A DNA stretch of 64,000 nt. Source: Fidelibacterota bacterium (GTDB taxonomy: Bacteria > Fidelibacterota > Marinisomatia > Marinisomatales > Marinisomataceae). The notes under the pieces were generated by a model that did no database searches, was not told where the DNA came from, and saw only the letters and a program-made list of their open reading frames with translations. Of this stretch, positions 1 to 5,612 are shown piece by piece. The DNA lies in NCBI GenBank assembly GCA_016777965.1, contig JADHQL010000001.1:1-64000 (forward strand). The letters run 5' to 3'. Position 1 is the stretch's first letter, and the number at the start of each line of letters is the position of its first letter. The position numbers were made by a program, and so were the translations under genes.

Positions 1-306
1 CTTTCTAGATCAACTTATGCAGAAGGATTAGGTGCTTTATATGCATATGAAAGACAGGTTCCTGAAATTGCAGATACTAAAATTAAAGGACTTGTAGATC
101 ATTATAATGTATCATCAGATGAAGGTTTAGAATACTTTGTTGTTCATAAAGATGCTGATGTTGAACATAGAGAGCAAAGCGCTGAATTAATGAATAAGCT
201 TTCAGATGAAGAAAAACTCTTAGCTAAAGAAGCAGGATTATCCACTGTTAAAGTGCTATGGGGTTTTCTATCTGGTCTTTGTGAAAAGCACAATATTCAA
301 GCTTAA
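1..306 (+). CDS. CADD-like / TenA-PqqC-fold di-metal protein (putative self-sacrificing p-aminobenzoate synthase), 3' fragment, 5' end outside window
   Basis: Frame 1 is open from base 1 to TAA at 304-306: LSRSTYAEGLGALYAYERQVPEIADTKIKGLVDHYNV...EYFVVHKDADVEHREQ. YE...K(+10)...H(+32)xxxD(+36)xxH(+39) matches CADD spacing (E142/K152/H174/D178/H181, from memory). Confidence 0.75.
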   Translation, partial: LSRSTYAEGLGALYAYERQVPEIADTKIKGLVDHYNVSSDEGLEYFVVHKDADVEHREQSAELMNKLSDEEKLLAKEAGLSTVKVLWGFLSGLCEKHNIQA

Positions 307-326
307 AAAAAAGAATTAAATAATTC

Positions 327-761
327 TTAGCAAACCTTAGGTCTTGCACAGACTGCATTCCAATTTACGGAATCGTCAATTGGTGCACCTTCTGACCTTG
401 AGATAAATTGACACCAACTTTTTGTAAACTCAGTTCTGGGAAATAGATACTTTTTTCTTTTATCCTTATCGCATGGCTCAAAGCAGAAATATCCTTTTTT
501 AAGGCCAAGTGAGATAAAGTTAACAATAGATGATTTTGAACCATATTTTGGACTTAGTTCTGCATAAACATCAGTTGCTGTAAATGATTTTCCATCAAAA
601 AAATTTGACATTATATAAAGAATGGTTACACGAGCGGTGGTAGATTGCAGAAAGAATCTACGAGCCTTTTCGTGTTCTGAAGAAGGCATATGATGGGTTA
701 AAGCAGCATAGATTGAACTAGTTTTTTCCCCAAAATCTTTTCTTGTCTTAAGTTTTTTCAT
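327..761 (-). CDS. Hypothetical winged-helix (MarR-like) protein
   Basis: 144-aa ORF; central region looks like a wHTH (ATDVYAELSPKYGSKSSIVNFISLGLKKGYF). Family assignment weak. Confidence 0.5.
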   Translation of the reverse strand: MKKLKTRKDFGEKTSSIYAALTHHMPSSEHEKARRFFLQSTTARVTILYIMSNFFDGKSFTATDVYAELSPKYGSKSSIVNFISLGLKKGYFCFEPCDKDKRKKYLFPRTEFTKSWCQFISRSEGAPIDDSVNWNAVCARPKVC

Positions 762-868
762 TTTTAAACAAATATATACAAAATAAGGCAGTGAATTACT
801 ACTAAGATTTACTATTATAATTAATATTTGAATTCATCGTATAAATCCGTATTATGCGCGCAATAAAA

Positions 869-1396
869 ATGAAAATAGAACAAATAAAAGAAACAATAAC
901 AATCGTTAAAGATTATCCTATAAAAGGCATAGTATTTAAAGATATTACTACACTTTTAGAAAATCCTGAAGCCTTCAAATCTACTGTTGATATAATGGTA
1001 GATAAGGTAAAACACTTAGATTTTAATAGAGTGGTTGGAGTTGAATCTAGAGGATTTTTCTGGTCTGGACCAATTGCTTATGCTTTATCAAAATCATTTG
1101 TATTAGCTAGAAAGCCTGGAAAATTGCCAAGAAAAGCAGCTGAAAAGTTCTTTTCTTTAGAATATGGAACTAATACTGTACATATTCATGAAGATGCAAT
1201 TTCAAAGGGAGATAAAGTATTAGTAGTAGATGATTTAATTGCAACCGGTGGTACTGCAATGGCCACTGCTGATCTTTGTCAGGAATTAGGTGCCTCTGAG
1301 GTACATATAATTGCGTTAATTGACTTACCTAAGTTGGGTGGATCAAAAAAATTAGCTGATAAATTCGGTGAAGTAATAACTCTTATAGATTATTAA
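869..1396 (+). CDS. apt: Adenine phosphoribosyltransferase
   Basis: PRPP-binding motif VLVVDDLIATGGTA and FKDITTLLENPEAF; start chosen at the second Met (869) of the 854 ORF. Confidence 0.93.
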   Translation: MKIEQIKETITIVKDYPIKGIVFKDITTLLENPEAFKSTVDIMVDKVKHLDFNRVVGVESRGFFWSGPIAYALSKSFVLARKPGKLPRKAAEKFFSLEYGTNTVHIHEDAISKGDKVLVVDDLIATGGTAMATADLCQELGASEVHIIALIDLPKLGGSKKLADKFGEVITLIDY

Positions 1397-3189: not shown

Positions 3190-4059
3190 ATGAGTTTGAT
3201 ATCATTTTCAAGAGATAAATTTATTCCATCTGATGAGGTAAGTCTTTCTGTAAGAGGAAATTATTTAAGCATAACTCGCGGTTATCAGGTTTTCACATTT
3301 TTTAAAACTGCTAATAATGGAACACCTGTTTTCCTTAATGATCATGTCGATAGAATTATGGAAAATGCTCAAGCAATGAAAATGAATTTATCTTATTCTA
3401 AACAGGATATCAAAGGCTTGGTTATTCAGACATTAGAAAAAAATGATTTTTCAAACGGTGAGTGTAATGTGATGATTATTTTTGCTGGTAAAGCTCCAGA
3501 TGATATTTCTGGTTTAGTTTCATCGCAAGAAGTTGATTTATTCATTGTTACATCTCCAATTAAACATTATCCCAAAGAGTTTTATACAAATGGAATTTCA
3601 TTGGGTCTTTATGAATTTGAAAGAATTGATGCTGAAGTTAAAACACCATACACATATTATGGTGGAATAAAAGCACACAGGTCTCTAGTGCATGAAGGGC
3701 CTTTTGACGAAGCGTTGTATACTAGCAAAGATGAAATTTTAGAAGGAACTACGTTTTCATTCTTTATTGTTAAAAATGAATCTGTAATAACTCCAAAGCT
3801 TGATGGTAGAATCTTAGGAAGTGTTACAAGAAAAAATTTGTTAAGAATAATGGATGTTCACAATATTGAACATAGTGAATCTGTAATTTTAATCGATGAT
3901 TTAAAAAATTCTAGCGAAGCATTTATTGCTTCGGCAAATAGAGATCTAATACCTGTAGTTTCAGTGGATGGTAATGAAGTAGGTGACGGTAAAACTGGAC
4001 CAGTGTATAAAAAGTTGATGAGCTTGTATCAACAGGAAATATTGAACATTAGTACATAA
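3190..4059 (+). CDS. Aminotransferase class IV (BCAT / aminodeoxychorismate lyase-like)
   Basis: PLP class IV pattern: LNDHVDRIMENAQAM, KAHRSLVHEGPFDEALYTSKDEILEGTTFSFF, DGRILGSVTRKNLL. Confidence 0.8.
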   Translation: MSLISFSRDKFIPSDEVSLSVRGNYLSITRGYQVFTFFKTANNGTPVFLNDHVDRIMENAQAMKMNLSYSKQDIKGLVIQTLEKNDFSNGECNVMIIFAGKAPDDISGLVSSQEVDLFIVTSPIKHYPKEFYTNGISLGLYEFERIDAEVKTPYTYYGGIKAHRSLVHEGPFDEALYTSKDEILEGTTFSFFIVKNESVITPKLDGRILGSVTRKNLLRIMDVHNIEHSESVILIDDLKNSSEAFIASANRDLIPVVSVDGNEVGDGKTGPVYKKLMSLYQQEILNIST

Positions 4060-4551: not shown

Positions 4552-5049
4552 ATGAATAAAAATTTTCTCTTAGCCTTATCATTAGGCATTATTCTTACCG
4601 GATGTGCATCAATAATGCAAGAACGTACAACAGCAGTAAAAAGAGCAACTGAAACTAAAGAGTTCGAAGTTTCTACTAAAGATCTAATTACTGCTTCTAT
4701 TGGAACATTTCAAGACCTTGGTTATACTATTGATGTACTTAATGCTGAGTTTGGTTTAATTACAGCTAGTAAAAAACAAGGAACAACTGCAACCAGAACT
4801 AATCTTGAAGAAGATCCATTTGAGGCTTTCTGGCGCGCATTAACTGGAATTGAAAATAAAGATGATGTTATAATAGCTCCTTTAACTTTATCTGCAACAA
4901 TTACAGTTAAAGAAATTTCAACTGATCCATTACTTTCGTCTTTAAGAGTAAACTTTGAAGGTGGAGATCGTAAATTTTCTGATTTATTTTTTAAAAGCTT
5001 TTTTGCAGCTTTAGATAAATCATTATTTTTAGATCAAGCAATTAATTAA
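4552..5049 (+). CDS. Hypothetical lipoprotein, paralog A of tandem pair
   Basis: Lipobox LTGCAS; shares TIDVLNAEFGLITASK and SSLRVNFEGG...KSLFLD with the next ORF. Confidence 0.75.
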   Translation: MNKNFLLALSLGIILTGCASIMQERTTAVKRATETKEFEVSTKDLITASIGTFQDLGYTIDVLNAEFGLITASKKQGTTATRTNLEEDPFEAFWRALTGIENKDDVIIAPLTLSATITVKEISTDPLLSSLRVNFEGGDRKFSDLFFKSFFAALDKSLFLDQAIN

Positions 5050-5051
5050 AA

Positions 5052-5612
5052 ATGTTTAAAAAAATAGCAATACATTCTTTTCTATTAACATTTTTATTAA
5101 TGAGTTGCGCCTCATCAGGCGGCTCATCAGACAAATCTACCGCAGCTCAAAGAGCAGTTGAAACTAGAGAATATGATGTAAGCTCAAGAAATCTTATGCA
5201 GTCTACCATTGGGGCATTTCAAGATTTAGGCTTTACAATAGATACATTAAGTGAAGAATTTGGCTTAATTACAGCAAGTAAAATTGAAGAACCTAAAAAA
5301 GAAGAAAGTGACGATAATATTGGATTATTGGGTGCTTTAGTTGCAGCAGTTGCAATTGGTGCTATATTATCAAGCGACTGGAATGATGATGATAATTGTC
5401 TGTTTTGTGATAGGAATGATGGCGGAGAGACGGTTATTGTCAAAGATTATAAGTTGACAGCAACAGTAACGGTGAAAGCAATTAATGATTCCGAGCCTTA
5501 TTTATCATCATTGAGAGTTAATTTTGGTGGTTCAGAAAGAAAAAGATCCATGCAATTTTTTAGAGAATTTTTTACTGCAATTGATAAATCTCTTTTCTTA
5601 GATGAATCTTAA
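5052..5612 (+). CDS. Hypothetical lipoprotein, paralog B of tandem pair
   Basis: Lipobox LMSCAS; FQDLGFTIDTLSEEFGLITASK and SSLRVNFGGSERK...KSLFLDES parallel paralog A; carries an extra hydrophobic insert. Confidence 0.75.
   Translation: MFKKIAIHSFLLTFLLMSCASSGGSSDKSTAAQRAVETREYDVSSRNLMQSTIGAFQDLGFTIDTLSEEFGLITASKIEEPKKEESDDNIGLLGALVAAVAIGAILSSDWNDDDNCLFCDRNDGGETVIVKDYKLTATVTVKAINDSEPYLSSLRVNFGGSERKRSMQFFREFFTAIDKSLFLDES

Follow-up and report, generated by a model that had tools for sequence, protein, structure and literature searches.

Self-sacrificing synthases of p-aminobenzoate (pABA) have been described as CADD in Chlamydia trachomatis (CtCADD, CT610), to which a host-cell role has also been ascribed, and as PabS in Nitrosomonas europaea (NePabS, NE1434). 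NE1434 complements an Escherichia coli pabABC deletion and consumes its own Tyr25 and Lys159 (PMC11965152). The same product is made by PabA, PabB and PabC (aminodeoxychorismate synthase and lyase), which are unrelated, chorismate-using enzymes. The metal preference of the self-sacrificing enzymes can be shifted at two positions: in NePabS, F177Y (CtCADD position 170) moves the preference from Fe/Fe to Mn/Fe, F148Y (position 141) gives an enzyme that accepts both metal forms, and Mn/Fe use has been suggested to reflect iron restriction inside the host (PMC11965152).

Here we describe a related gene fragment at the beginning of the window, the stretch of 64,000 nucleotides that was analysed, which derives from a free-living marine lineage. 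Its positions 1–306 would be, with a probability of roughly 0.92, the C-terminal part of an intact CADD/PabS-type self-sacrificing pABA synthase gene whose product provides pABA for FolP and replaces PabA/PabB/PabC. A first-pass annotation of the sequence had considered such a host notable. The host is indeed of this kind; however, a free-living marine CADD is less surprising than was stated, because the family had already been reported from free-living Nitrosomonas, Chloroflexi and Sphingomonas (PMC11965152). In the literature searched, coverage of which is incomplete, no paper on CADD in SAR406 or SAR11 was found.

The CADD fragment at the contig end

Frame 1 of the forward strand is open from the first base of the window to a TAA stop and encodes 101 residues (Table 1). 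The product contains YERQVPEIADTKIKGLVDHYNVSSDEGLEYFVVHKDADVEH, in which a Tyr-Glu pair is followed by Lys at +10, His at +32, Asp at +36 and His at +39 from the Glu; in the alignment these correspond to Y141, E142, K152, H174, D178 and H181 of CT610. The Glu/Lys/His/Asp/His spacing that the first-pass annotation had likened to Chlamydia CADD is therefore found exactly, and the Tyr that it described as kept before the Glu is the equivalent of Y141. Its assignment to a CADD-like pABA synthase also stands: the NCBIfam profile TIGR04305 (fol_rel_CADD) matches residues 2–95 with an E-value of 7.6e-33 and 113.9 bits, a score limited by the fact that the fragment is half a protein, and the PqqC model yields 18.2 bits. 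Within Pfam, the fragment fits Haem_oxygenas_2 (PF14518; E 5e-11) instead of PF03070, whose profile found no match in the window's own genome. Sequence matches in the PDB were confined to the 4-aminobenzoate synthases 9pj4 and 8va9 and to CT610 (1rcw), with E-values of about 1e-14; 9PJ4 carries the NePabS residues and is presumably NePabS or a close relative. The nearest public loci are from single-cell and metagenome genomes of uncultured Candidatus Marinimicrobia (SAR406), 82–98% identical over the fragment, followed by Pelagibacteraceae at 57–64%.

Table 1. Features of the window at and downstream of the CADD fragment, with the basis for each assignment.
Feature	Position	Strand	Basis
C-terminal 101 aa of a putative CADD-type self-sacrificing p-aminobenzoate synthase, 5' part cut by contig end	1..306	+	TIGR04305, Haem_oxygenas_2, PDB 9pj4/1rcw/8va9, identity to L003
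Tyr-Glu codons, equivalent to CtCADD Y141 (metal-selectivity tyrosine) and E142 (metal ligand)	49..54	+	Aligned with CT610 and 9pj4; PMC11965152 for the role of Y141/F148
Lys codon, equivalent to CtCADD K152, amine donor	82..84	+	Alignment; role from PMC11965152
Tyr codon, equivalent to CtCADD Y170, main metal-preference residue	136..138	+	Alignments; role from PMC11965152
HKDADVEH, metal ligands H174/D178/H181 of CtCADD	148..171 (codons 148-150, 160-162, 169-171)	+	Alignment
ORF of 144 aa with no family assigned, lying between CADD and apt (context only)	327..761	-	No Pfam/NCBIfam match; tblastn presence/absence
apt, adenine phosphoribosyltransferase (context only)	854..1396	+	NCBIfam apt models, synteny
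Class IV aminotransferase	3190..4059	+	Intermediate between the IlvE and D-amino-acid transaminase models; no curated NCBIfam cut-off reached

The fragment starts at base 1 of its contig, in a genome of 400 kb that is 57% complete, and the N-terminal half of the protein is missing because the assembly ends there. Only 101 residues are present and two genus genomes (G006 and G022) carry frameshifted CADD copies, both of which could be taken to indicate a degraded, non-functional remnant. The chance of this is close to nil: the window begins at the contig end, the remaining residues are 96% identical to residues 119–219 of the full-length orthologue L003, and the damage in G006 and G022 extends to several genes nearby, owing to which the frameshifts (L022 and L019, in long-contig assemblies) are attributed to assembly or sequencing errors. 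A pseudogene was thus rejected for the window's copy, on the contig end and the high identity to intact copies.

Full-length orthologues, predicted fold and gene neighbourhood

Since the N-terminal half lies outside the assembly and the window's own genome is so incomplete, the checks that had been proposed for the fragment were run on its relatives. Fifteen intact orthologues from the genus encode proteins of 219–222 residues, and their alignment with CT610 and 9pj4 reveals Tyr27, Glu81, His88, Tyr141, Glu142, Lys152, Tyr170, His174, Asp178 and His181 in all 15. The upstream equivalents of Tyr27, E81 and H88, which the first-pass annotation had wished to see, thus occur in every full-length genus orthologue, and they recur in the other aligned Marinimicrobia and in Pelagibacterales, save for masked (X) positions in two sequences. 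The last four of the six metal ligands (E81, H88, E142, H174, D178 and H181) lie in the window, and the complete set is present in 15/15 orthologues. The sacrificial Lys (K152) is found in the window and in every aligned relative, and the sacrificial Tyr (Y27) is invariant among the 15; the window begins after that position, and its own gene probably carried Tyr27, Glu81 and His88, given its near-identical relatives. In L003 (gene at 4647-5306), the equivalents of Tyr27 and Lys152 are Tyr21 and Lys145. Donor residues and ligands are likewise all kept in the five Pelagibacterales sequences.

By homology to the characterised enzymes, the protein would be a heme-oxygenase-fold dimetal oxygenase (HDO), its dimetal centre held by three His and three carboxylate residues. 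Activation of O2 at this centre would start a radical that hops via tyrosines to the Tyr27 equivalent; this residue would lose its side chain, which would be oxidised, with oxygen from O2, to give the carboxylate of the benzoate and would receive its amino group from the Lys152 equivalent. Because its own Tyr and Lys side chains would be consumed, each protein would work once, in place of PabA/PabB/PabC.

The protein might instead share the metal ligands alone and be PqqC, TenA or another HDO with a different reaction, such as PQQ synthesis, thiamin salvage or BesC/UndA-like cleavage. The fold is shared with these enzymes, and the full-length protein matches the Pfam families Haem_oxygenas_2 and TENA_THI-4 alike. 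However, full-length L003 matches TIGR04305 with an E-value of 1.2e-87 and 292.9 bits (cut-off 200), about 250 bits above both PqqC (43.4 bits; cut-off 240) and BesC (41 bits). An AlphaFold2 model of L003 (pLDDT 88.7, from 20 sequences) retrieves CtCADD as the top Foldseek match in the PDB, with a TM-score of 0.90–0.91 on the query and an rmsd of 1.6–1.8, and PqqC follows as the second-best fold match at 18% identity. The closer similarity to PqqC or TenA that had been named as grounds against a CADD is therefore not seen in the fragment, the full-length protein or the fold. Additionally, the Tyr27 and Lys152 donors, needed only by the self-sacrificing reaction, are kept, and the distribution of PabB and FolP described below fits pABA. 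A different HDO reaction is accordingly highly improbable.

The usual gene order in the genus is S1/P1 nuclease, DNA photolyase, CADD, apt, a metallo-beta-lactamase-fold gene on the opposite strand, the class IV aminotransferase and lipoproteins, and the window follows this order from the CADD fragment onward. Photolyases often carry a folate antenna. The 144-residue ORF between CADD and apt occurs in the window and in L001, L010, L014, L015, L019 and L022 and is absent from the other relatives by tblastn; by eye, its product looks like a small winged-helix regulator. In relatives without this ORF, apt lies directly 3' of CADD, with a gap of 28 bases in L003. The class IV aminotransferase stays near CADD across the genus. 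No folate gene adjoins CADD in the Marinimicrobia loci examined; NE1434 likewise lies outside a folate cluster, but it adjoins glyA (PMC11965152).

pABA and folate genes in the genus and the phylum

The genus set comprised 24 genomes including that of the window, many of them incomplete and eight at least 90% complete. CADD was matched in 22 of the 24, with 18 above the TIGR04305 cut-off; the match in G008, at 23 bits, was discounted as too weak. In G008 and G023, neither apt nor the class IV aminotransferase was found, in addition to CADD. A loss of CADD was also considered for G005 and dismissed: its contig begins inside the metallo-beta-lactamase-fold gene beside apt, and the genome offers no evidence of absence because the CADD position falls in an assembly gap. 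FolP is encoded by 22/24 genomes and by all eight of those at least 90% complete; it was not found in the window's own, 57% complete genome.

A search with the pabB model identified no true PabB in any of the 24 genomes. It returned only five matches, proteins of about 500 residues, of which the two scanned (L044 and L047) are TrpE, at 549–551 bits and over the TrpE cut-off. All five adjoin a TrpG-type protein, and PabA-type TrpG over the cut-off was found solely in these five genomes, beside TrpE. Consequently, the complete pabABC set that the first-pass annotation had listed as contrary evidence was not recovered: none of the 24 genomes yielded PabB, and five TrpE/TrpG pairs were all that turned up. 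The class IV aminotransferase of the window was tried as a PabC candidate and rejected, since PabC models reach at most 79 bits, all under cut-off, and its best matches are IlvE (115 bits) and D-amino-acid transaminase. Most likely, by homology to the known enzymes, the genus enzyme is the source of the pABA from which dihydropteroate synthase (FolP) builds folate.

To place the genus in its phylum, 245 Marinimicrobia genomes were surveyed, with PabB distinguished from TrpE by length (at most 455 residues, plus two PabB fusions of 589–590 residues), a rule checked on eight scanned proteins. CADD occurs in 55 genomes and PabB in 73, and both occur together in one as against 16.4 expected (one-sided Fisher p 5.3e-9, which overstates independence because of the kinship among the genomes). 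When the window's genus is excluded, the co-occurrence is 1 against 11.2 expected (p 6.4e-6). The exclusion is strong yet not absolute because G191, the sole genome with both CADD and PabB over their cut-offs (loci L071 and L129), has the two; it could represent a transitional state or a binning error. Of the 55 genomes with CADD, 52 gave a FolP match.

Neither CADD nor a recognised PabB was detected in 118/245 genomes, a count that may include divergent PabB missed by the loose first step of the search; examples are G041 (97% complete) and G042 (91%). Among the 94 high-quality genomes surveyed, 93 gave a FolP match. Some genomes of the phylum would therefore need outside pABA or an unknown route, as they have FolP without CADD or PabB; either pABA uptake or a third route could serve them. 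The two long PabB proteins are of 590 residues (L068 1315-3084, in G152) and 589 residues (L072 1318-3084, in G151); in L068, the C-terminal part from residue 388 matches PRK07546, and the protein looks like a PabB-PabC fusion.

These data also bear on whether the CADD homologue mainly performs another job, such as a part in signalling or in protection against oxidative stress, while pABA is drawn from sea water. Such a role is compatible with the lack of adjoining folate genes and with the phylum survey, in which roughly half of the genomes lack both CADD and a recognised PabB while nearly all encode FolP, and another HDO, DtpC of Acinetobacter, has been linked to desiccation stress (PMC13232832). 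Nevertheless, neither of the sacrificial residues, Tyr and Lys, varies, and a role other than pABA synthesis does not predict the mutual exclusion of CADD and PabB. We regard this alternative as very unlikely.

Descent, metal-selecting positions and known systems

In a tree of 55 sequences, the CADDs of the genus group with those of Pelagibacterales (support 100/100), apart from 33 other Marinimicrobia CADDs; the tree has long branches, and the rest of the bacteria is represented by CT610 and 9pj4 only. Forcing the genus and the other Marinimicrobia into one group was rejected (AU p 0.004). Pelagibacterales CADDs, 63–65% identical, are the closest relatives found outside the genus. As the genus CADD groups with SAR11 and not with its own phylum, horizontal transfer is suggested; the best reading of the sequences is a transfer between SAR406 and SAR11, with either lineage as the possible donor. 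Carriage by a phage or virus was considered as the vehicle and rejected, since neither viral contigs nor phage records contained a match.

The window and all 15 genus orthologues have Tyr at both positions 141 and 170 (Tyr/Tyr), whereas SAR11 and most other Marinimicrobia have Tyr/Phe, the state of neither characterised wild-type enzyme. At least four Tyr–Phe changes at position 170 are needed on the CADD tree. Given Tyr at both metal-setting positions, a Mn/Fe rather than an Fe/Fe centre is predicted for the genus enzyme, by a residue-to-metal rule derived from two published enzymes (PMC11965152). In a lineage that lives free in the sea, a Tyr/Tyr enzyme would be consistent with a general scarcity of iron. 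Tentatively, and with rather less than even odds, the genus may have exchanged CADD with SAR11, or both may have received it from one unsampled donor, and the genus may then have changed Phe170 to Tyr, so that a pABA synthase of Fe/Fe or metal-tolerant type became a Mn/Fe enzyme in an ocean habitat poor in iron. If true, nature would have made the switch that F177Y introduced into NePabS by engineering, and the published link of the Mn/Fe form to host iron restriction in a pathogen would have an exception. The natural split between Tyr/Tyr and Tyr/Phe offers a direct comparative test of the choice between Mn/Fe and Fe/Fe.

If the reading as a pABA synthase holds, SAR406 and SAR11 lineages would spend one protein per molecule of this B-vitamin precursor, and their genomes would seem pABA-auxotrophic to annotation that seeks PabABC alone. 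Because the chemistry and the family were already known, our findings extend a known system rather than found one; the modest additions are the SAR11 grouping of the genus CADD, the Tyr/Tyr metal positions and CADD as the probable pABA route of the genus.

Within the phylum, PabB takes the place of CADD in other Marinimicrobia and was not found in this genus. The Pelagibacterales (SAR11) CADDs (L016-L018, L020 and L021) differ from the genus enzyme in Phe at position 170 and in their gene neighbours, L016 and L018 having an MFS transporter upstream of CADD. NePabS, about 42% identical, resembles the genus enzyme in its donor Tyr and Lys, all ligands and an environmental host; unlike it, NePabS, an Fe/Fe enzyme, has Phe at both metal-selectivity positions, and in the alignment NePabS/9PJ4 carries an insert of 9 residues with no counterpart in the SAR406 enzyme. 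CtCADD (PDB 1RCW/8VA9) shares with the genus enzyme the TIGR04305 family, the fold, both donors (Tyr27 and Lys152), the ligand set of three His and three carboxylates, and Tyr at both 141 and 170, at about 41% identity over the full length and 34% over the window fragment; unlike CtCADD, the genus enzyme is encoded outside a folate gene cluster and in a free-living host.
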